Source: Gemmatimonadaceae bacterium (lineage in GTDB: Bacteria; Gemmatimonadota; Gemmatimonadetes; Gemmatimonadales; Gemmatimonadaceae). From it: DNA of 41,600 nucleotides. The stretch covers positions 1-41,600 of the forward strand of contig JADYYN010000105.1 of NCBI GenBank assembly GCA_020853635.1, read 5' to 3'. A model generated the notes under the pieces. That model was not told where the DNA came from and did no database searches. It worked only from the letters and a program-made list of their open reading frames with translations. Shown here piece after piece: positions 30,674 through 39,866 of this stretch; position 1 is the first letter of the stretch; the number at the start of each line of letters is the position of its first letter. The position numbers and the translations under genes are program-made.

Positions 30674-31105
30674 TCACCTCTCGTTTCGGCCGGCTCGCTC
30701 CGGACGCTGTCGGTCGGCTCGATCATCTGTGCAACTCTCGCGTTTTCGCAGCTTCTCCTGGACTCGCTTTCTCAGGCCCATGAGCATGCTTTGAACCTCG
30801 GAGAGTCGGGCTTCGAGCACGGCGTACTCCCTCGCTGTGATGAGTTCGAGGTCCTTCGCAAGCAGTAGGTGATAGTCCGCCTCCCGCGCGCTAGCGAGTG
30901 CGATCTCGAGGTAACGGTTGAACTGGGCCTGCGAGGCGTGGCCCGCGCCTTCCGCGAGGTTCGCAGGGATCGCGGAGATGGACCGTCGCAGCTGACTGCT
31001 CAGCCCCGGATAGCGACGGGCCAAAGGACCATCGACGGCGCGGTGAATGCGCAGCGTCAGTTCGTGGGCTTTCTCCCACACCTGGAGCTTTCGGAACGGA
31101 TACAT
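30674..31105 (-). CDS. Four-helix bundle protein (23S rRNA intervening-sequence protein family)
   Basis: 143 residues. The family pattern is clear: [20 protein letters not shown] at the N-terminus, [22 protein letters not shown] in the middle, [23 protein letters not shown] and [16 protein letters not shown] in the last helix. Such proteins were first seen inside 23S rRNA intervening sequences but are mostly free-standing, with unknown role; they may bind nucleic acid as pentamers. The last 25 residues are Arg-rich and reach into the terminator region. The gene stands alone between two inverted GGGAGAT arrays, in the opposite direction to its neighbours, as if inserted as a unit. Confidence 0.88.
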
Positions 31106-31196: not shown

Positions 31197-32297
31197 ATGC
31201 TTTCCTTAGGCATCGTAGGCCTCCCCAACGTCGGCAAGTCCTCCCTCTTCAACGCCCTCACGGCAGCGAAGGCAGAGGCCGCCAACTACCCCTTCTGCAC
31301 CATCGACCCCAACGTCGGCGTCGTCACCGTCCCCGACAAACGGCTTGATGCCCTCGCAGTCGTGGTGAAGCCGGAGCGCACGGTGCCTGCGGCGGTGCAG
31401 TTCGTCGACATCGCGGGGCTCGTGAAGGGTGCATCGAAGGGTGAAGGCCGCGGCAACGCGTTCCTGAGTAACATCCGCGAGACTGACGCCATCGTGCACG
31501 TCGTGCGTTGCTTCGACGATCCTGACGTCATCCACGTCGATGGCTCGGTGAATCCGGCGCGCGATCGCGAGACGATCGAGTTCGAACTCGCGCTCGCCGA
31601 CCTCACGGTGGTGGAGAAGCGGCTCGACAAGGCCAAGCGCGCGGCGAAGACCGGTGACAAAGCCGCCGCCACCGAAGCCGCCGCGCTCGAGAAGGCTCAC
31701 GCGCCGCTCAGCGAAGGCCGCGCCCTGTGGCACGTGACGCTCACGCCCGAGGAGCGCGCGCTCATGCAGCCGCTGCAGCTGCTGACGCTCAAGCCCATCC
31801 TCTACGCCGCCAACGTCACCGACGCCGAACTCACGGGGCAGGAAGGCCCGCACGTCACCGCGCTGCGCGCCGCGATCGCCGCCGATCACGAGCCCGCCGA
31901 GGTCGTCACGTTCTCGGCGAAGATCGAGTCCGAACTCGCCGAGCTCCCGCCGGAGGATCGCGCGGAGTTCCTCTCATCGCTCGGCCTCGAGTCCGCAGGG
32001 CTCGACCGACTCATCCAGGCCGGCTTCCATCTCCTCGGCCTGCACACGTACTTCACGGCCGGTGAGAAGGAAGTGCGCGCGTGGACGCTGCATCAGGGCG
32101 ACACGGCCCCCAAGGCCGCCGGCGTCATCCACTCGGACTTCGAACGCGGCTTCATCCGCGCCGAAACGGTGGGCTACGACGACTTCATCGCGATGGGCGG
32201 TTGGAAGGGCGCGAAGGAGAAGGGCGCGGTGCGGGCGGAAGGCAAAGAGTACGTCGTGAAGGACGGCGACGTGTTGCTGTTCCGCTTCAACGTCTAG
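31197..32297 (+). CDS. ychF: Ribosome-associated ATPase YchF/OLA1
   Basis: 366 residues. Obg-family P-loop protein that hydrolyses ATP rather than GTP and binds ribosomes, with roles in stress and redox response. Visible: [19 protein letters not shown] (Walker A), the family [16 protein letters not shown] switch I segment, [21 protein letters not shown] (switch II) and the NVTD segment in place of the GTP-specific G4 motif. An alpha-helical hairpin follows near 130-180 and the TGS-like domain closes the protein ([45 protein letters not shown]). The start is supported by domain completeness although ribosome-site sequence is replaced by repeats. Converges on the RiPP cluster with a 12-base gap. 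Confidence 0.96.
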
Positions 32298-32309: not shown

Positions 32310-33383
32310 CTAGTCGCGGGCGCCGCGCACGGCGGTCCACGCCCGCCTGAACGGACGCAGCACCGGATACAATCCCACCAGCGCGTCGGGCAGTTGCACG
32401 GCGTTCCATTCCTGCAGCGTGGGATCGAACGTCGCCCGCGCGAGCAGACGGGCGCGGTCGCCGCTGCGCTCGGTCCACGCGAGATCCCAGCGCAGCGGCG
32501 GGCGCCACGCGGTCTCGCCGAGCCGCCAGCGTTCCTCCACCGTGGCGACCAACGACGGGATCGTGGGGTCCGCCCCCACCGCGCCCGCCAGTTCGCTGGG
32601 CAGTGGCAACTCGAGGGCGCGTGCGATGAGCGCCGCACCGAGACGCACGCAACGTCCGCCGCCGTTCGACTGCGCGCGTTCATGCGCCGCCACCAACGCC
32701 CGGGGTTCGCGCTGCGCCAATGCGGCGAACACCGCCACGTCCTCCAGCGAACTCCAGCCGTGTTTGGTCGCGTGCTGCGCGAGGAGCGCGAGCGTGTCGG
32801 CCATGCAGGGCACCGGGATCAGCGTCCCGGCGAGTGCGACATTGGTGGCGCGCTGCAGCACGTCGCGCACCGGGAGCCGACCGGCGTAGCGCCGCGCGCT
32901 GAACTCCCAGTGCAGCTCGAGCAGCCCGGGTTCGGCGTCGCCGTGGAACTCCCACGCCGCGAGTCCGTCGAAGATGGCGCGCTCCTGCGCCCGACTCATC
33001 GCGTGGCGCGGCGTCCACCCGAGGGCCAGCACCGCCGCGCGGGCGTCGTCACGCGCGTCATGCGGCACAACGATGTCGAGGTCGGAGAACACCCGCAGAC
33101 TCGGATCGCGCCAGGCCTGCACGGCGAGCGCCGGGCCTTTCCACGCCAGCGCGGGCACACCGGCCGATGCGATCGCGGCCATCAACGTACGCAGGGTCTG
33201 CGTAGCCACGAGGGCGCGGAGGGCATCGCCGCGGGCGAGGTCGGCATCGATCGGCGCGATCGTCGCGGGCAGCAACGGCCGGATGAGCGGGAGCACGCGG
33301 TGCGCGACTGCGAGTCCCTGCACGGTCGCCCATTCCTCGGGTGCGACGGCCATCGCGTCGAACGCGAGACGATCCCCGGTCAC
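32310..33383 (-). CDS. Nucleotidyltransferase family protein of a lasso-like RiPP cluster
   Basis: About 357 residues. The polymerase-beta type site is LAWKGPALAVQAWRDP with Lys82, then RVFSDLDIVVPHD with the metal pair Asp101/Asp103. Later come LELHWEFSARRYA and HATKHGWSSLEDVAVF, as in the nucleotidyltransferases (PF14907 type) of RiPP clusters. In the pseudomycoidin system such an enzyme decorates the phosphate put on by the kinase with hexoses; here the same partner kinase is present, so a similar job is likely but not shown. The GTG at 33383 is the only usual start, but the frame stays open upstream into the precursor B gene (LAVLRAALRARV), so the true start may lie further up. Last gene of the cluster. 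Confidence 0.8.
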   Translation of the reverse strand: MTGDRLAFDAMAVAPEEWATVQGLAVAHRVLPLIRPLLPATIAPIDADLARGDALRALVATQTLRTLMAAIASAGVPALAWKGPALAVQAWRDPSLRVFSDLDIVVPHDARDDARAAVLALGWTPRHAMSRAQERAIFDGLAAWEFHGDAEPGLLELHWEFSARRYAGRLPVRDVLQRATNVALAGTLIPVPCMADTLALLAQHATKHGWSSLEDVAVFAALAQREPRALVAAHERAQSNGGGRCVRLGAALIARALELPLPSELAGAVGADPTIPSLVATVEERWRLGETAWRPPLRWDLAWTERSGDRARLLARATFDPTLQEWNAVQLPDALVGLYPVLRPFRRAWTAVRGARD

Positions 33384-33444
33384 GCGCGCGCGCAGCGCGG
33401 CGCGGAGTACTGCGAGCGCGCGCGGCGGCGCGGCGCTCAGTGCG

Positions 33445-33639
33445 TCACCCGGTGCGGCGCCACCAGAAGCCGCCGTCCACGCGGCCCGGCGCGAACCAGT
33501 TGCGCTTGGTCAGCTCGGCCGCGGACCCGTGGACCGTCAACGTCGGCGCTCGATACGGCGCACGGGACGGCGCAGTGACGCGCGGCACCGACGTCTCGTC
33601 GGCGGATCGATCGTCTGGTCGTGAGCGATTGGGTTGCAT
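33445..33639 (-). CDS. Lasso-like RiPP precursor B
   Basis: 64 residues from the ATG at 33637-33639, with GGAG seven bases upstream. The leader has the lasso signature at exact spacing: Tyr29, Pro32, Leu34, Gly38, Leu43, Thr44 (YRAPTLTVHGSAAELT), the part bound by PqqD-type proteins. The rest is KRNWFAPGRVDGGFWWRRTG. If cleavage falls two residues after Thr44, as usual, the core starts at Arg46 and its only acid, Asp55, is position 10; cutting one residue later gives Asn47 to Asp55, a nine-residue ring. The ending RRTG is shared with precursor A. It lies between the kinase and nucleotidyltransferase genes; 120 bases upstream of it are empty. Confidence 0.75.
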   Translation of the reverse strand: MQPNRSRPDDRSADETSVPRVTAPSRAPYRAPTLTVHGSAAELTKRNWFAPGRVDGGFWWRRTG

Positions 33640-33759
33640 CGACGGACTCCGGGGAACACTGGGAACGATACCGAGTGACGCGCTGGTGCAGCAGGAACAT
33701 CGCCTGCGCCGCCACTCTGAACAAAGACGCACACTGCCGATGGAAGATAACGTCCCGGC

Positions 33760-34725
33760 TCAGTCCCGCCCGTCGATGTGCATCACGAAGTGCGACACCG
33801 TCTGGACGAGCGCATCGAGCCGGCCAGGATCCTCGTGCGGCACCAGCCGCTTGACCGGCACCACCGCGGCGAGCCGACCGACCGCCTGCAACTCCGCTCC
33901 CCGCTCGGCATCGTCGAGGAGATAGTTCGCGTACGAGTTGCTGACGAGGCCGAGCAACGCCTCGCCACCACCGACGGCCTCGATGCGCGGCGCGTCGATC
34001 GACTCGCGTGGCGCGAACAGCAGCAACGCACCCACCGGCACCGCCTCATGTGCGGAGACCAGACCCGCCTGCGCGAGCGAGAGTCCCCTCTTGGGGAATG
34101 TCGGCGTGAGCGGCGCCAATCTTGACCCGGCCCCGAACAGCAGACGCTCGCTGTCCTCCCACAGACGCACCTGATCCGGCGCCGGCGTGGTCATCCAGCC
34201 GCGCGGCGTCTCACGCAGTACGAGGATGTCGTCGGTGACCACGGCGTAGCCGCGCTGCGCACACGCCGTCACCAGCGTGGACTTCCCCGCTCCGCCCGGC
34301 CCAACGAACGCCACCGCACGCCCGTCGATCACCGCCGCACTCGCGTGCAACGCGAGCAGCCCGCGCCGTCGCAACGCATAGCCGAGCACCGGACCCACCA
34401 GGAAGGTCATCGCGTCAGCGAGGGTGAGCGGCGCATCCCAATCGGCCCACACCTGACGCCCGTCGGTGGTGATGTGGAATCGGATCCCTTCGGCGTACCG
34501 CAGCACGATCGCTCCCACGGTCGGCAGCGCGGAGACCACCACCGCCGGCTCGTCGCCCTCGCGTTCGTCGGAACGGTACCGCTCCTGTTCCGGCACCTCC
34601 GCCCACGGCGGCTGCGCGTCGAGCGCGATCACGACATCCGCGTCGCCCTGCGCGCCGACCTCCGCGAGCCCGGGCAAGGGGTGCGCACTGCGCAAACGGA
34701 GTCCGAACGCGAGATGATCAGCCAT
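33760..34725 (-). CDS. HPr kinase-like protein of a lasso-like RiPP cluster
   Basis: 321 residues. The C-terminal HprK-type core has LLALHASAAV with His127, Walker A GPGGAGKST at 142-150, VVTDDILVL with Asp165/Asp166, and later VGALLLFAPRESIDAPRIEAV. The first 100 residues are a beta-rich N-domain with no DRTGG-type motif, so it is not true HPr kinase. Homologues in paeninodin-type clusters phosphorylate the C-terminal Ser of the lasso precursor. Here both precursors end Thr-Gly, so Thr may be the acceptor (inference). The ATG at 34725 overlaps the cyclase stop by 8 bases. Confidence 0.85.
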   Translation of the reverse strand: MADHLAFGLRLRSAHPLPGLAEVGAQGDADVVIALDAQPPWAEVPEQERYRSDEREGDEPAVVVSALPTVGAIVLRYAEGIRFHITTDGRQVWADWDAPLTLADAMTFLVGPVLGYALRRRGLLALHASAAVIDGRAVAFVGPGGAGKSTLVTACAQRGYAVVTDDILVLRETPRGWMTTPAPDQVRLWEDSERLLFGAGSRLAPLTPTFPKRGLSLAQAGLVSAHEAVPVGALLLFAPRESIDAPRIEAVGGGEALLGLVSNSYANYLLDDAERGAELQAVGRLAAVVPVKRLVPHEDPGRLDALVQTVSHFVMHIDGRD

Positions 34726-36508
34726 GACGCGACACCGGCTGCGCGAGCCATCGCGCGACTTCGTACACGCGCCACGCGGCCATCACCGCGTTCGCATCAC
34801 CCGACTCCAGGAGCACGCGCTTCCACTCCGCCACGTCGATGAGATGCTCCATCGGATGTGCGAGCGCACGACGGGCACCGTCCGCCGCGCGCCACGCCGC
34901 CACGCCCGCCTCGATCGCACCGTGCACCGGCGTCTTGGGACGTGCGAGCACGTCGGCCGGCAGCTGGCCCTGCATCGCCCGGCGGATCAACTGCTTCTCC
35001 TGACACCACGGGATGGGCGCGATCGCATACACGAATGTGAACAACCGCGCGTCGAGCAACGGCAGCACGACCGTGAGCGGCACGCCGGTCACGCTCGTGT
35101 CGTCGATAGCGAACAACGTCTCCCACACCGGCTGCTCGAACGACCACGCGGAGAGCGGACGCAGCGGGTGACGGGCGGACTGTGGTGGCACCATCGTGCC
35201 GTGCTGCGCGAGGACGTCCGGACGCAGCCACGTCGGCGCCCGCCAGTCGCGCGTGCGTGACGCTGCGGCGCGCCCCGAGAACTCGCGCGCACCGATCCAT
35301 GGCCGACGCGTCGATCCGCCGCGGAACGCACGCCAACTCCGCCACGTGTCCGCCCACGGTCTCGTGCGCAACAGCGTGAGCAGGTCCGGCGGTGCGAGCA
35401 GTGAGTCGCCATCCTCTCCGTCAATCGTCACCGGTGCCTGCGCCGCGAGTGATGCCGCACGCGTGCGCCACATCGCGAGGTCGGGGTCGGACACAGGCTC
35501 AGGCGTGTGCACCAGCGGATCATCGCAGTGCGCGAGGAGCCCCGCGCCGTCGGCGTACGCGATCTCCTGCGGGATCCCCAGGTGGTCCGCGACACGCCGC
35601 GCCCACTGTGCTTCGTCGGTGGGCACCAGCCGCTCGTGCGAGACAGTGAGCGCCGAGAGCTTCACCGCACCCGCGTGGCTGCGCGCGGCGGCTGCGATCG
35701 CGGGGGAGTCGAGCCCGCCACTGAGCTGGATGGTCGCGCGCGGCGTGCGCAGGCGATCGCGCACCGCGGTGCCGAGCACTTCGCGGAACTCGGCGAGCAC
35801 CACATCGTCGCGCATGCCGGTCCGCGAGGCCGGCACGGGGAAGTCCCAATGCCGCGTCTCCTCACGCGACCCGTCGGCGCGCCAGACCCACTGATGCGCG
35901 GGTGGCACCCGATGCACACCCACCCGCGCTGTGCGCCAAGGATCGATGATGGAGCCCGAGCGCAGGAAGTCCGTGAGCGCGCGCTCATCCGGCGTGGCGT
36001 CCACGCCCGGCAGCAGCAACAGCGCGTCGAGATCGTTCGCGAGCGCGACGAACTCCCTCGTCTCGGCCACGAATAGTGGCTTCACGCCGAAGGTGCCGCG
36101 CGCCGCGATGAGCTCGCGCGAGGCGGTGCGCAACGCCGCGAACGCGAAGTCGCCGAGGCAGTGTGCGGCGGCGTCGCGCCCCCATACCTGCAGCGCCGCG
36201 TGACAGAGCGAGGCATCGGTGGCGTGCATGGCCTCGGCGATTCCGGCGTCGCGTAGCCGGGCGCGCAGACGATCGCGATCGTCGAGCCGCAGGTCGGCCG
36301 CGAGCAGCAGCGCGTCGCGCAGGATCGGCAGGTCGTCCTCCGCGCCCACCGCGTCGGTGAACGCGGTGTGCACCGCGACGGCGTCGGCCGTACGTTGCAC
36401 GCGGCTGCCTTCCGGCCCACGGAGCGCGAGCCGCGCGACCACGCGCGCGAGCACGGCATCATCCAACTGACCGCCAGCGCGGTGCCAGCACAGCAGGAAC
36501 CCGCTCAC
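34718..36508 (-). CDS. Asparagine synthase-like lasso cyclase (C protein)
   Basis: 596 residues. The N-terminal half has the glutaminase fold (GFLLCWHRAGG, CLGDFAFAALRT, RGTFGVKPLFVAET) but lacks the Cys at position 2, so it should not release ammonia. The synthetase half has the ATP loop IQLSGGLDSPAIAAAA with SGGLDS at 263-268, then a DGEDGDSLLAPPD segment matching the GDGGDE region of asparagine synthetases. In lasso systems this enzyme adenylates the Asp/Glu side chain and joins it to the new N-terminus. The only ring acid in each precursor core, Asp50 or Asp55, would be its target. GTG start overlaps the methyltransferase stop (GTGA). Confidence 0.87.
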   Translation of the reverse strand: MSGFLLCWHRAGGQLDDAVLARVVARLALRGPEGSRVQRTADAVAVHTAFTDAVGAEDDLPILRDALLLAADLRLDDRDRLRARLRDAGIAEAMHATDASLCHAALQVWGRDAAAHCLGDFAFAALRTASRELIAARGTFGVKPLFVAETREFVALANDLDALLLLPGVDATPDERALTDFLRSGSIIDPWRTARVGVHRVPPAHQWVWRADGSREETRHWDFPVPASRTGMRDDVVLAEFREVLGTAVRDRLRTPRATIQLSGGLDSPAIAAAARSHAGAVKLSALTVSHERLVPTDEAQWARRVADHLGIPQEIAYADGAGLLAHCDDPLVHTPEPVSDPDLAMWRTRAASLAAQAPVTIDGEDGDSLLAPPDLLTLLRTRPWADTWRSWRAFRGGSTRRPWIGAREFSGRAAASRTRDWRAPTWLRPDVLAQHGTMVPPQSARHPLRPLSAWSFEQPVWETLFAIDDTSVTGVPLTVVLPLLDARLFTFVYAIAPIPWCQEKQLIRRAMQGQLPADVLARPKTPVHGAIEAGVAAWRAADGARRALAHPMEHLIDVAEWKRVLLESGDANAVMAAWRVYEVARWLAQPVSRHG

Positions 36509-37686
36509 GCCGGATCCCCTTCCACGAGCCGCGCGAGTTCGCGCGCGGCGAAATCGAGCGCCTCTCGTTCGGTGGGGAACCGCCGCGGGAACGCCGCGCG
36601 CACCGTGTGAGCGATCTCACCGAGCGACCGTGCGCCATCCACTTGGGCGAGCAGCGCGGCCAGTGCGTGCACCGCGTCGTCGCGCGGTGGCACGGCGGTG
36701 CTCGCACGGCGCGCGAGCCGCTCCGGGGCGAGCAGTCGCGCACCCAAGTCGGTGGCCACCTGGCGGTCGCGCACATCGCCGGTGGCCGAGCTCACGGTCA
36801 CCTCCCATCGCCACACGTAGTCGCTGCCGTCATGCGTGGCGCGCATCGCAATCGCGATGCCATCGCCCACACGCACTGGCACCGTGCGCTCGAGCGGGAA
36901 CCAGGCGCAGTCGTACACCGACGCGCCTGCCTCCGGCCCACTACCGAATGACGCGCCGCCCGCGAGCTCGGCGTCGAACCATCCGCCGAGTCCTTGGAGT
37001 GCGCCGTCCTGCGTCACAGTCACCTGCACGGTCCCGCGCACGTCGGTGGGGATGGCGGCGGTGAGCTCGAGCGTGGCCCACCGCGCAGAGGCGGCGAGCG
37101 GCCGCAACGCCGAGGCGCGGACGCGCTGCCATCCCTGCGCCGCGCGCGCGCGGATGGTCGTGAGATCGAGTGGGGCGTGGTGCGATGCGTGATGCGATGC
37201 GTCGTTCGATGCATCGTGGGCGGTCTCCCGTGCCGACGTCACGTGCGCGGCCGCACACGGCGCGATCACGAGGTGATCCCGCAACGCGATGTGCCGCGCG
37301 TCGGTGCGAAGCAACCGTGCACGCGCGTCCGCGAGGATGCCCGAGCGCGCACCCATGAGCGGGAACACTCCGCGCAGATCCTCAAGGAGCACGTCAGCGA
37401 GGTTCGGCAACGTGATTTGTTCGGCACGTCGCTGCAGGAACGTGATGCGGTCGCCGACCCCGTGCTGCGCGGCGAGTGCCGGCCCGAGCGCCACCGCATC
37501 GTTGGGTTCGATGGCCCACACATGGGCGGCGCCGGCGAGCGCGGCGTGCACGGCGAAGAAGCCGAACCCCGTGCCGAGCTCGAGTACGTGGTCACCTGGC
37601 CGGACGGTGGCGCGGAGTGCAGCGATGTAGGCGGACGTACGGCGAGGGTCGTCCACCATCGCCAGATAGTCCGACAGCTCGTACAC
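36505..37686 (-). CDS. PRMT-like SAM methyltransferase with PqqD-like tail
   Basis: 393 residues. Residues about 10-150 are a class I SAM domain of protein arginine methyltransferase (PRMT) type: MVDDPRRTSAYIAAL, VLELGTGFGFFAVHAA (34-49), acidic Glu60 in WAIEPNDA, DVLLEDLRGVFPLMG. Residues about 185-305 follow the PRMT beta-barrel: LQGLGGWFDAELAGGASFGSG, RTVPVRVGDGIAIAM. The second Glu of the PRMT double-Glu loop and the THW motif are not conserved, so the substrate or activity may differ. The last 80 residues (DGARSLGEIAHTVRAAFP, ALDFAARELARLV) look like a degenerate PqqD/winged-helix fold. It follows precursor A without a gap. Arg methylation of the core is an idea, not shown. Confidence 0.75.
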   Translation of the reverse strand: MYELSDYLAMVDDPRRTSAYIAALRATVRPGDHVLELGTGFGFFAVHAALAGAAHVWAIEPNDAVALGPALAAQHGVGDRITFLQRRAEQITLPNLADVLLEDLRGVFPLMGARSGILADARARLLRTDARHIALRDHLVIAPCAAAHVTSARETAHDASNDASHHASHHAPLDLTTIRARAAQGWQRVRASALRPLAASARWATLELTAAIPTDVRGTVQVTVTQDGALQGLGGWFDAELAGGASFGSGPEAGASVYDCAWFPLERTVPVRVGDGIAIAMRATHDGSDYVWRWEVTVSSATGDVRDRQVATDLGARLLAPERLARRASTAVPPRDDAVHALAALLAQVDGARSLGEIAHTVRAAFPRRFPTEREALDFAARELARLVEGDPA

Positions 37687-37863
37687 TCAGCCGGTCCGGC
37701 GACCCATGAAGCCGTCCATCTGGCCCATCATCATGTTGTTCTCGGTGAGCGCGCTCACCGCGCCGAACTGCTTGAGTCGCGGGGCTGCGTACGCCGCCCG
37801 TGCTTCGCGCTCGCCGCGCGGCTCAGGCGCTGGGTCACTCGGCAGGGAATCGTCGCGTCGCAT
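37687..37863 (-). CDS. Lasso-like RiPP precursor A
   Basis: 58 residues from the ATG at 37861-37863 (a TTG three codons earlier is possible). The leader signature has exact lasso spacing: Tyr25, Pro28, Leu30, Gly34, Leu39, Thr40 (YAAPRLKQFGAVSALT). With cleavage two residues after Thr40 the core would be NNMMMGQMDGFMGRRTG, 17 residues, whose only acid Asp50 is position 9; a nine-residue ring with a tail GFMGRRTG would result. It shares the DG-F-x-x-RRTG ending with precursor B but its ring part is Met-rich while B has Trp, Phe and Arg. First gene after the recognition protein and directly next to the methyltransferase, the common place for a precursor. Confidence 0.8.
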   Translation of the reverse strand: MRRDDSLPSDPAPEPRGEREARAAYAAPRLKQFGAVSALTENNMMMGQMDGFMGRRTG

Positions 37864-37896
37864 GTCTCGCAATGTGTGAGGACGAGCGCCCGAGCG

Positions 37897-38235
37897 TCAA
37901 CCGTCGCCGGCCACCCGGGACACCAGGGCGCGGCGTTCGAGATCGTCTACGAGTGCGATGAGGTCATCGAACGCCTGCGGTTCGTCGACCTCGAACTCCT
38001 CGGCGATCGTGGCCGAGATCTCGCCGAGCGTGACCGGCTGCTGCAGCATGCTCCAGATCCGCGCGCCGACGCCGTCGAGTCCGTAGTACATGCCGTCGTG
38101 CATGGAGAGGATCACGGCCTCGGCGTCGAGCGCGGCCGACACCTGCGCGTCGGAGACGACGCAGCGGCTGGCCCGGCTCAGCGGCGTGCCGCCGGGCGAG
38201 GCCGATGACGGGGAGGGCGGCGTGGCGTCGGGCAT
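37897..38235 (-). CDS. PqqD-like RiPP recognition protein (B1)
   Basis: About 112 residues from the ATG at 38233-38235 (a GTG three codons upstream also fits). A Pro/Ser-rich start is followed by a PqqD-type winged helix: LSRASRCVVSDAQVSAAL, LDAEAVILSMHDGMYYGLDGVGARIW, and DDLIALVDDLERRALV. The pattern of a Tyr-rich strand followed by NxxG-like turn and IW helix is the RiPP recognition element that grips the leader's Tyr/Pro/Leu segment. In many lasso systems it is a separate B1 protein next to B2, the peptidase. Here B1 opens the cluster, but no B2 follows. Confidence 0.85.
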   Translation of the reverse strand: MPDATPPSPSSASPGGTPLSRASRCVVSDAQVSAALDAEAVILSMHDGMYYGLDGVGARIWSMLQQPVTLGEISATIAEEFEVDEPQAFDDLIALVDDLERRALVSRVAGDG

Positions 38236-38281
38236 CGTGCGCACGATACATTCGGAGTCCCTCCTCTCGCAAAGGGTGCGT
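38236..38281. promoter_or_regulatory. Very short divergent region in front of the RiPP cluster and the TPR gene
   Basis: Only 46 bases separate the two starts. On the minus strand TTGCGA-like and TATCGT elements 18 bases apart (about 38273 to 38244) would start RNA almost at the ATG at 38235, a leaderless start. On the plus strand TACATT (38247-38252) is a possible -10 for the TPR gene, which also has an AAAGGG ribosome site. The two -10 elements overlap, so the genes could exclude each other's transcription. Confidence 0.25.
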
Positions 38282-39139
38282 ATGCGCGTCGTTTCTTTCG
38301 TGGGGCTCGCCCTGCTCGGTTTCGCCTTGCCGCTGGCGGCACAGACCGCGACCGAGTCGCCGGAACTGCGCGCCGCGCGCGCGGCCTGGCAACGTCACCC
38401 GTCCAACGCCGACTCCATCATCTGGTACGGGCGCCGCGTCGGCTACACCGGCGCGTTCGCCGAGGCGGTGGCGATCGACACCGAGGGGCTGCGTCGGCAT
38501 CCCGACGAGCCGCGCCTGCTGCGGCATCGCGGCCATCGGTACATCTCCCTTCGCGACTTCCCCAAGGCGATCGCCGACCTCGAGCGCGCGCGGCAGGTGG
38601 TCGCGGGCAAACCGGACGAGGTGGAGCCCGACGGCCAGCCAAATGCGCGCGGGATCCCGACGAGCACACTGCACTCGAACATCCGGTACCATCTGGCGCT
38701 GGCGTACTTCGTGACCGGTGACTTCGCCAAGGCCCTGCCGATTTGGGCCGAGGACACACGGGTCGCCCCCAACGTCGACCAACGGGTAGCCGCCACGTAT
38801 TGGTGGGTGCTCACTCTGGCGCACCTGGACCGCCACACCGAGGCCAAGGCCGAGCTGGCGAAGATCCGCGCCGACTGGGACGTGATCGAGAACGGGAGCT
38901 ACCACCGGCTGTTGCTGTGGATGAAGGGGGAGCTCGCCGAGGAGGCATTGCTCGGCGCCGCGCCGAGCGCGCTGGAGCGGCAGACGATTGGCAACGGCGT
39001 GGGCCAGTGGCACGCCGCCCACGGTCGGACGGCGGAAGCCCGAAAGGCCTGGGAGGCCGTGCGGGCCACGGGCCCCTCGGCGGCCTTCGGCTACATCGCG
39101 GCGGAACAGGGGCTGGCCCGGTTGACCAAGTCCCGATAA
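38282..39139 (+). CDS. Secreted TPR protein
   Basis: 285 residues from the ATG at 38282, seven bases after AAAGGG. A signal peptide (VVSFVGLALLGFALPLAAQ) is followed by tetratricopeptide repeats: DSIIWYGRRVGYTGAFAEAV, LRHRGHRYISLRDFPKAIAD, YHLALAYFVTGDFAKALPIW, WWVLTLAHLDRHTEAKAEL, WHAAHGRTAEARKAWEAV. No catalytic site. Such proteins act as periplasmic scaffolds. The gene is divergent from the RiPP cluster but nothing ties it to it. Its 3' end holds the likely rpsF promoter. Confidence 0.82.
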   Translation: MRVVSFVGLALLGFALPLAAQTATESPELRAARAAWQRHPSNADSIIWYGRRVGYTGAFAEAVAIDTEGLRRHPDEPRLLRHRGHRYISLRDFPKAIADLERARQVVAGKPDEVEPDGQPNARGIPTSTLHSNIRYHLALAYFVTGDFAKALPIWAEDTRVAPNVDQRVAATYWWVLTLAHLDRHTEAKAELAKIRADWDVIENGSYHRLLLWMKGELAEEALLGAAPSALERQTIGNGVGQWHAAHGRTAEARKAWEAVRATGPSAAFGYIAAEQGLARLTKSR

Positions 39140-39271: not shown

Positions 39272-39637
39272 TTGTCTCGTGAATACGAGGCGGTGTACAT
39301 CTTCGATTCTGCACTCGAAGACGCCGCCATCGCTGAGAAGATCGAGAAGCACCACGCCCTTCTCGGCACCACCGACCCCATCACGCTCGACCACTGGGGA
39401 CGCCGTCAGCTCGCGTACAAGATCGGCTCGAAGGAAGCCGGCTACTACGTCGTGGCCCGCTTCAAGGCCGAGGGCAAGGTGCTGCCCGAGTTCGAGCGTT
39501 CGCTCAAGCTGGACGACACCGTGATCCGTTACCTCATCTCGGTGCACGAGCATGAGCTCGGCGCTCCGCCGATGACCGAAGAACAGCTCGCCGCGCGCCG
39601 TGCGCGTGATGGCGACGACGACGACGACGAGGAGTAG
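39272..39637 (+). CDS. rpsF: 30S ribosomal protein S6
   Basis: 121 residues. Binds 16S rRNA with S18 in the platform of the small subunit. Typical: [41 protein letters not shown] and [16 protein letters not shown]; acidic tail DDDDDEE as is common for S6. The start is the TTG at 39272, since no ATG or GTG precedes the conserved SREYEAV and AAAGGGAGGA lies nine bases upstream; another TTG at 39264 is possible. The weak start plus a strong ribosome site fits feedback by S6:S18 binding. Confidence 0.95.
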
Positions 39638-39641
39638 CCCC

Positions 39642-39866
39642 ATGCGCCGCAATAAGAAGGTCTGCCCGGTGACTGAGGCCGGCATCCGTTTCATCGACTA
39701 CAAGGACGAGCGCTTCCTGTCGCGCTTCGTGACGGACAACGGGAAGATCCTCCCGAGCCGTCTCTCCGGCGTCGATGCCCGCCACCAGCGTCAGCTGGCC
39801 AAGGCGATCAAGAAGGCGCGGTACCTCGCGCTCCTGCCCTACACGCGCAGCCAGAACGCGCAGTAA
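39642..39866 (+). CDS. rpsR: 30S ribosomal protein S18
   Basis: 74 residues. Partner of S6 on the 30S platform. Signatures: [60 protein letters not shown], all intact, single Cys (so a C+-like reduced form rather than a four-Cys type). Begins four bases after the rpsF stop. Confidence 0.96.

Follow-up and report, generated by a model that had tools for sequence, protein, structure and literature searches.

Gene content of the locus

The window analysed here, a stretch of 41,600 nucleotides from a Gemmatimonadaceae bacterium, is contig C105 of a 4.17-Mb assembly (genome G000; 83.7% complete, 295 contigs). It carries seven genes, all on the minus strand at 32310-38244, in the order B1, A1, MT, C, HprK, A2 and NTase, and both coordinates and strand agree with an initial annotation that had read the region as a lasso-type cluster for a ribosomally synthesised and post-translationally modified peptide (RiPP). 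Our results bear out that reading: the locus is a real, conserved lasso-type RiPP cluster, in a variant without the leader protease gene B2 and with a methyltransferase (MT) of the protein arginine methyltransferase (PRMT) family. A test for B2, a gene that defines lasso clusters, found none in this one, and for that reason we do not class the locus among ordinary lasso clusters. Four features had gone unnoticed in the initial annotation: the cluster lacks B2, sister clusters have it, the chromosomal site is fixed and the PRMT active site is altered. Family searches were made against Pfam and NCBIfam, and several of the matches reported here lie under the curated cut-offs of narrow models.

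The first gene, B1 (37897..38244), encodes a PqqD-type RiPP recognition element (RRE), matched by PF05402 (3.5e-17) and by NF033536 lasso_PqqD_Bac (2.3e-15, 56.5 bits; cut-off 80). C (34718..36508) encodes an asparagine-synthase-like lasso cyclase, with a Pfam match to Asn_synthase (8.8e-28), a top NCBIfam match to lass_lactam_cya (179.7 bits, under its cut-off of 525) and 133.6 bits to asn_synth_AEB (under its cut-off of 267.1). Its N-terminus reads (start)-S-G-F, without the glutaminase Cys2, as had been proposed, and the SGGLDS motif is intact; Cys2 is absent from all five cyclases of the window's own genus, and the AsnB controls begin with MCG (9/10) or VCG (1/10). In a tree of 53 rows (43 lasso-type cyclases and 10 AsnB-type proteins), the window cyclase stands among the 43 and is split from the AsnB-type proteins with 100% support in the Shimodaira-Hasegawa-like approximate likelihood ratio test (SH-aLRT), and it joins the four other own-genus cyclases (100%); together they lie in a 19-member group, the rest of which comes from the family's B2-bearing clusters. 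Judged from these alignments, it belongs to the lasso C family and not to AsnB, and the concern that it might group with ordinary asparagine synthetases fails because of this split and because the own-genus cyclases have no Cys2. Elsewhere, at L090:3833-7719, two tandem lasso-type cyclases and two different precursors share one cluster.

The HprK-like kinase (33760..34725) matches the HprK-related kinase A model below its cut-off (3.9e-9, 36 bits; cut-off 200), and its residues H127, K148, D165 and D166 are invariant in 10/10 aligned proteins; the His-Lys-Asp-Asp motif is taken from PMC9266682, and the assignment of residues was made in this analysis. The nucleotidyltransferase (NTase; 32310..33383, in a frame open upstream past 33439) matches PF14907 at 5.2e-30 (105.3 bits; cut-off 31.2), and Asp101 and Asp103 are invariant in 9/9 proteins. 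We take PsmN of pseudomycoidin to be of the same PF14907 family. For the PqqD-type protein, the kinase and the nucleotidyltransferase, the family matches thus concur with what the initial annotation had read from the translations.

The precursors A1 and A2

Two precursors with a lasso leader had been predicted, and both hold, on different grounds. A1 (37687..37872) is matched by no lasso family model in Pfam or NCBIfam and is called from its leader motif and from its relatives, which occupy the same place in G003, G015 (two copies) and G006. Its leader is YAAPRLKQFGAVSALT and its predicted core NNMMMGQMDGFMGRRTG, with Asn1 and Asp9; translation may more likely begin at the ATG at 37863 than at the TTG at 37872. 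A2 (33445..33639, 64 aa) is recognised by lasso_leader_L3 (21.5 bits; cut-off 19), with leader YRAPTLTVHGSAAELT and predicted core (R)NWFAPGRVDGGFWWRRTG. It has relatives in G003 and G015, and the precursor at the A2 place in G010 is more A1-like. Both carry the YxxPxL...G...T(-2) leader. The ring Asp is Asp9 in A1 and, by the usual cut, Asp10 in A2, becoming Asp9 only if the cut falls one residue later. The macrolactam predicted for A1 has a mass of 1914.78 Da ahead of any decoration, and that for A2 one of 2302.14 Da with the usual cut or 2146.04 Da with the later one. As to whether the precursor frames are conserved, A1 and A2 both recur in the nearest relative, with ratios of non-synonymous to synonymous substitution rates (dN/dS) of 0.44 and 0.33.

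For a wider comparison, nine own-genus precursors were tabulated with 26 from B2-bearing clusters, using a search pattern that itself requires Thr(-2). All nine own-genus precursors have a Thr 15 residues after the Tyr, at position -2, where the pattern demands it, and a looser pattern (Ile, Ser and Val also allowed at -2) returned the same seven in four own-genus loci and one extra frame, in L038, outside the cluster. All nine also have Asp at core position 9 or 10 and a tail R-T-G with Thr penultimate. Among 12 fetched neighbourhoods, precursors with a lasso leader were found by pattern in ten; L044 has two by reading, and none was seen in the truncated L037.

The PRMT-family methyltransferase

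Taken alone, the MT protein (36505..37686) gives a weak PRMT match (PRMT5_C, 0.0042); the assignment becomes strong with a 13-member profile, which matches PDB PRMT2 at 3.2e-38, and with the fold: the predicted model has a predicted local distance difference test (pLDDT) score of 91.4, and all 50 Foldseek matches listed are PRMTs (E 8e-23 to 3e-20). The protein has about 80 extra C-terminal residues, and its double-E loop is replaced by EDLRG. In PRMTs, the double-E loop holds the guanidinium group. The loop aligned with SEWMG of PRMT2 reads D[LVMTI][RH][GA] in 26 of 43 aligned relatives, window included; in the window, the first Glu has become Asp, the second position is not acidic and Arg stands in place of Met. 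Because both double-E glutamates are lost, the acceptor of MT, judged from sequence, is probably not arginine, and it may perhaps be anionic. A reading of MT as an ordinary arginine methyltransferase acting on a tail or core Arg is therefore unlikely in our view: the PRMT fold and profile favour it, as does the Arg adjoining the tail Thr in 9/9 own-genus precursors, but the window clade has other residues at both glutamate positions, the Arg by the tail Thr is a Lys in relatives that share the loop, and the MT-less sisters L194 and L201 keep R-R-T or K-R-T. The tail motif was also considered as evidence for arginine methylation and was set aside, since basic-Thr/Ser tails occur in MT-less clusters with HprK and in MT-less sisters; the motif thus seems to be the kinase's. 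The C-terminal domain of MT, PqqD-like by eye, was likewise rejected as a second RRE (probability 4.7 for its profile against the cluster B1 proteins); this domain is also absent in L043 and L044.

The initial annotation had regarded the combination of these tailoring genes as singular, and this did not stand. A contig scan gave at least 593 stretches with 129 MT relatives, of which the best 80 were kept, so that the counts that follow are no census. In 33 of these best 80 loci, from several phyla, a lasso-type cyclase match of 100 bits or more lies no further than 8 kb from MT, on either strand. HprK accompanies the pair in 32 of the 33, B2 in 23 and NTase in 20, with several of the contigs cut short; at the single HprK-less locus the contig ends 11 bases past MT. 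Eight weaker places were not among the loci fetched for this analysis (G140, G124, G047:C48, G362:C86, G068:C12, G312, G107:C20, G066). Three clusters of genus g13 (L193, L194, L201), similar in other respects, have no MT, and we for this reason regard it as accessory.

A second MT clade (L112, L115, L119, L120, L121, L130) keeps the second PRMT Glu, in a loop DQIGxFGxExG, and in this clade precursors ending Cys-Leu were seen by eye at 6/8 lasso loci, an association confounded by descent. In G170, MT lies in two overlapping frames (L214:5189-6240), which represents a frameshift or an assembly error.

The kinase, the nucleotidyltransferase and the precursor tail

To set the tailoring genes in context, we surveyed 53 clusters of the phylum, out of 88 examined, that had B1, B2, C and flanks of 2.7 kb or more on both sides. 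Our surveys ran on custom hidden Markov models with score thresholds, not on Pfam; this one is anchored on B2, so that B2-less clusters are not countable by it, and its candidate precursors were picked by pattern and include some spurious frames. HprK and NTase occur without MT in 26 clusters and all three genes together in 12; another 12 have none of them, two have HprK alone and one has MT alone. HprK and NTase are hence together in 38/53 clusters, a second reason why the combination is not singular, and NTase is found in 38/40 clusters with HprK against 0/13 without it. Among clusters that showed any candidate precursor, one with Ser or Thr as last residue was found in 26/27 with HprK and no MT, in 9/12 with both and in 0/8 without HprK, which indicates that the kinase goes with the tail Ser/Thr. 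In four lasso-type clusters without HprK and NTase (L249, L253, L256, L260), the candidate precursors end in another type of tail, GFxL or GYSL.

Relatives, chromosomal site and selection

With MT as query, a search of 149 genomes identified relatives of nearly full length in 12 other family genomes, and a profile search of 179 family genomes returned further ones. In the 12 fetched neighbourhoods, MT stands with B1 in 12/12, with C and HprK in addition in 11/12 and with NTase as well in 10/12; the missing genes are explained by contig ends within the cluster, in G007 and in G006, where NTase lies beside ychF on another contig. The cluster occupies a conserved site. In the window, ychF (31197..32297, plus strand; PF06071, 3e-38) is convergent with the cluster at one end of this site, rpsF and rpsR (39272..39866, plus strand; PF01250, 1.5e-21; PF01084, 1.2e-23) mark the opposite end, and a gene for a tetratricopeptide repeat (TPR) protein (38276..39139, plus strand; start picked by eye) lies between the cluster and rpsF. 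A gene for a 23S rRNA-intervening-sequence protein (PF05635) is located at 30674-31105 of the window, between an H+-pyrophosphatase gene and ychF.

Family clusters lie beside rpsF and/or ychF in 21/22 cases from four genera, with both sides seen in 14 and L046 as the exception; five own-genus lasso clusters of a second type are located elsewhere. The rpsF-ychF site is occupied in 6/17 own-genus genomes and empty, with ychF adjoining the TPR gene or rpsF, in 8/17 (G004, G005, G008, G009, G011, G013, G014, G016), and G001, G002 and G012 are not judgeable. Because the cluster sits at this site across four genera and the site is empty in 8/17 own-genus genomes, the cluster is apparently old and vertically inherited in the family, with repeated loss; repeated gain at one site may be an alternative. 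Against the nearest relative, dN/dS is 0.26 for NTase, 0.30 for HprK, 0.32 for C, 0.30 for MT, 0.32 for B1, 0.44 for A1 and 0.33 for A2; L038, the most distant of the own-genus relatives compared, gives 0.47-0.62 for the five larger genes, at near-saturation of synonymous sites. By these ratios, the cluster genes are under purifying selection.

B2 is missing from the cluster and present elsewhere

A PF13471 search of contig C105 found no B2, and a C...HAW pattern that recovered B2 in 9/9 positive controls found none in the window, in L035-L039 or in L081. Applied to five further loci, the same pattern gave nothing in L090, L097 and L085, one chance frame in L136 and a true B2 in L152. The own-genus clusters that are complete are those of G000, G003, G010 and G015, and in G006 and G007 the gene after B1 is A1 or MT. 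Twenty family genomes of other genera match MT strongly, and 14 of them have B2 within the cluster, right after B1; in the remaining six (G151, G166, G171, G173, G219, G221) the cluster was cut by contig ends or not examined. As sister-genus clusters have B2 after B1 and own-genus clusters do not, a single loss is the simplest account, and B2 was probably lost once in the own genus.

B2 is found elsewhere in 4/6 own-genus genomes with the cluster: G000 (contig C199), G003, G006 and G010. On C199 (L033:7225-14775), a second lasso cluster comprises two Cys-containing precursors, B1, B2, C, HprK and NTase, without MT. G003, G006 and G010 encode B2 proteins that share 63-67% identity with the G000 one, each as part of a complete second lasso cluster that includes HprK and NTase. 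Second clusters similar to that on C199 occur in G003, G006, G010 and G016. A PF13471 match on contig C100 and its relatives (20-30 bits, in frames of 531-792 aa) were rejected as B2: they occur in 14/17 own-genus genomes whether or not a lasso cluster is there, and with A4, the B2 profile, such frames score E 8e-4 at best.

Split arrangements exist in other lineages. L136, from a metagenome-assembled genome titled Candidatus Korobacter, has C, HprK, MT and NTase with no B1 or B2 in 19 kb, and a B1-B2 pair (L273) lies on another contig of that genome with no cyclase within 8 kb. L097, from acidobacterial group gp6, is an MT cluster with B1 and no B2, and the lone B2 of its genome (L274) has neither B1 nor cyclase within 8 kb. 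No B2 stands in L090, the locus with two cyclases; that genome does contain a weaker B2, accompanied by B1 and a partial HprK-like match. These split cases make a trans-acting B2 plausible in general; for the window they are no proof.

Proposed pathway and alternative explanations

We propose, with modest confidence, that the cluster encodes a B2-less, split lasso-type pathway for a peptide with a decorated tail, to which B2 is supplied in trans. B1 would bind the YxxPxL leader of A1 or A2, and HprK would phosphorylate the conserved tail Thr of R-T-G. NTase would then add onto the tail phosphate, much as hexose is reportedly added by PsmN, and the PRMT-family enzyme would contribute a methyl group, probably not on arginine and perhaps close to the tail. 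The cut after Thr(-2) would come from a B2 encoded at another place, here the second lasso cluster on contig C199, and C would close the ring between the new N-terminus and the conserved Asp.

Of this scheme, the gene content, homology, fold and conservation, the lack of B2 in the cluster and a B2 at another place were observed, and every chemical step, the order and target of the modifications and the action of B2 in trans are inferred. Several points weigh against the proposal. A2 and several of its relatives would require a ring of 10 or 11 residues. The predicted core residue 1 is V or R in 6/9 B2-less precursors against 2/26 from B2-bearing clusters, odd residues for a ring closed there; the p of 0.001 for this difference is not to be taken at face value because the rows are related. 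G015, which is 92% complete and has a complete cluster with three precursors, yielded no B2 at E<=1, and G007 (77% complete) yielded no true B2, only a weak match in a 766-aa frame. Finally, the co-occurrence, within the genus, of the cluster with a C199-type B2 is weak (4/6 against 1/11, one-sided p 0.028, uncorrected for kinship), and p becomes 0.07 if the different B2 of G008 is counted.

One alternative is a maturation independent of B2, in which a general or unrelated protease removes the leader, the part that SpI-like peptidases play for the linear polyphosphorylated peptides (LPPs), before C closes the ring. We give this a minor but real chance. G015 speaks for it, as does the leader protease outside the B2 family in an RiPP family with HprK and NTase, described in PMC13381572, and the title of the pseudomycoidin paper, which tells of synthesis without leader and leader peptidase. 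The Thr(-2) kept in the nine own-genus precursors found speaks against it, and the cluster shows no gene recognisable as another protease, own-genus genomes not having been searched for non-B2 leader proteases. It is improbable that the leader is never removed, so that C and the tailoring enzymes give a leader-bearing branched or linear phosphopeptide and no lasso; a cluster without B2, the bulky first core residues and the existence of LPPs, an RiPP family with HprK and NTP transferase and no cyclase, fit such a product, but Thr(-2) and the ring Asp are conserved, and the cyclase is under purifying selection and nested among the cyclases of B2-bearing clusters. That the cluster is decaying, with the loss of B2 as the first step of degeneration and no product made, we consider very improbable. 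The site empty in 8/17 own-genus genomes implies that loss of the cluster is common, and dN/dS is higher towards the most distant own-genus relative compared, where synonymous sites are near-saturated; against decay, all genes are intact in the four complete clusters, the catalytic motifs are kept and, towards the nearest relative, the larger genes stay at 0.26-0.32.

A bolder form of the split pathway, which we think doubtful, would combine a cluster with no B2 of its own, and none at all in one lineage or more, with a PRMT-fold enzyme repurposed to methylate a tail phosphate or carboxylate. To our knowledge, such tail methylation by a PRMT-family enzyme is known neither in lasso peptides nor for PRMTs.

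Significance and comparison with known systems

The loci examined point to a broad class of lasso-type clusters that combine a PRMT-family enzyme with tail phosphorylation and often an NTase; the titles of the records involved name Gemmatimonadetes, Acidobacteria, Chloroflexi, Myxococcales, Nitrospira and Proteobacteria. With B2 lost in one genus and MT missing in three members of another, nature offers pairs with and without each gene at one site, so that the need for B2 and the target of MT are directly testable. A PRMT fold with a rebuilt arginine-gripping loop could represent a new acceptor chemistry, and the retention of a lasso-type locus across genera at a single housekeeping site speaks for a stable role and not that of a mobile weapon. 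In the literature searched, from which subscription literature was largely outside coverage, no title or abstract was found that describes the cluster type (lasso with PRMT, HprK/NTase, B2-less, Gemmatimonadota), nor do the accessible parts of the sources found, PMC11285071 and PMC13352647 included, describe it.

The initial annotation had likened the HprK/NTase pair to paeninodin and pseudomycoidin clusters, a likeness that we can uphold. B2 is present in both the pseudomycoidin and the paeninodin cluster, and we know of no nucleotidyltransferase or methyltransferase in the latter. In paeninodin, the kinases PadeK and ThcoK have the same His-Lys-Asp-Asp set as the window kinase and act on the C-terminal Ser of the precursor. 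According to PMC9266682, kinases of this type phosphorylate the C-terminal Ser, and PsmN then adds a hexose; the pseudomycoidin (psm) cluster, with the kinase PsmK and the nucleotidyltransferase PsmN, thus resembles the window, and differs from it in having a tail Ser in place of R-T-G and in that no PRMT-family methyltransferase is told of there. As in the window, a methyltransferase occurs in a lasso cluster with StspM/LasF, which act on the C-terminal carboxylate, and LihM, of the PIMT type, which forms an aspartimide; these RiPP enzymes are of other methyltransferase families than MT, and a 2024 review of RiPP methyltransferases has 0 occurrences of PRMT. Metanodin (PMC12670498) shares Asn as first ring residue with the A1 prediction, and differs by its classical A-B-C cluster, with 0 occurrences of kinase or NTase in that paper. 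Lastly, the LPPs, as described in PMC13381572, differ from the window in having no cyclase and in possessing an SpI-like protease and an MsbA-like transporter, neither of which was recognised in the window, while they resemble it in their RRE, HprK kinase and NTP transferase, and their leader protease is not B2.

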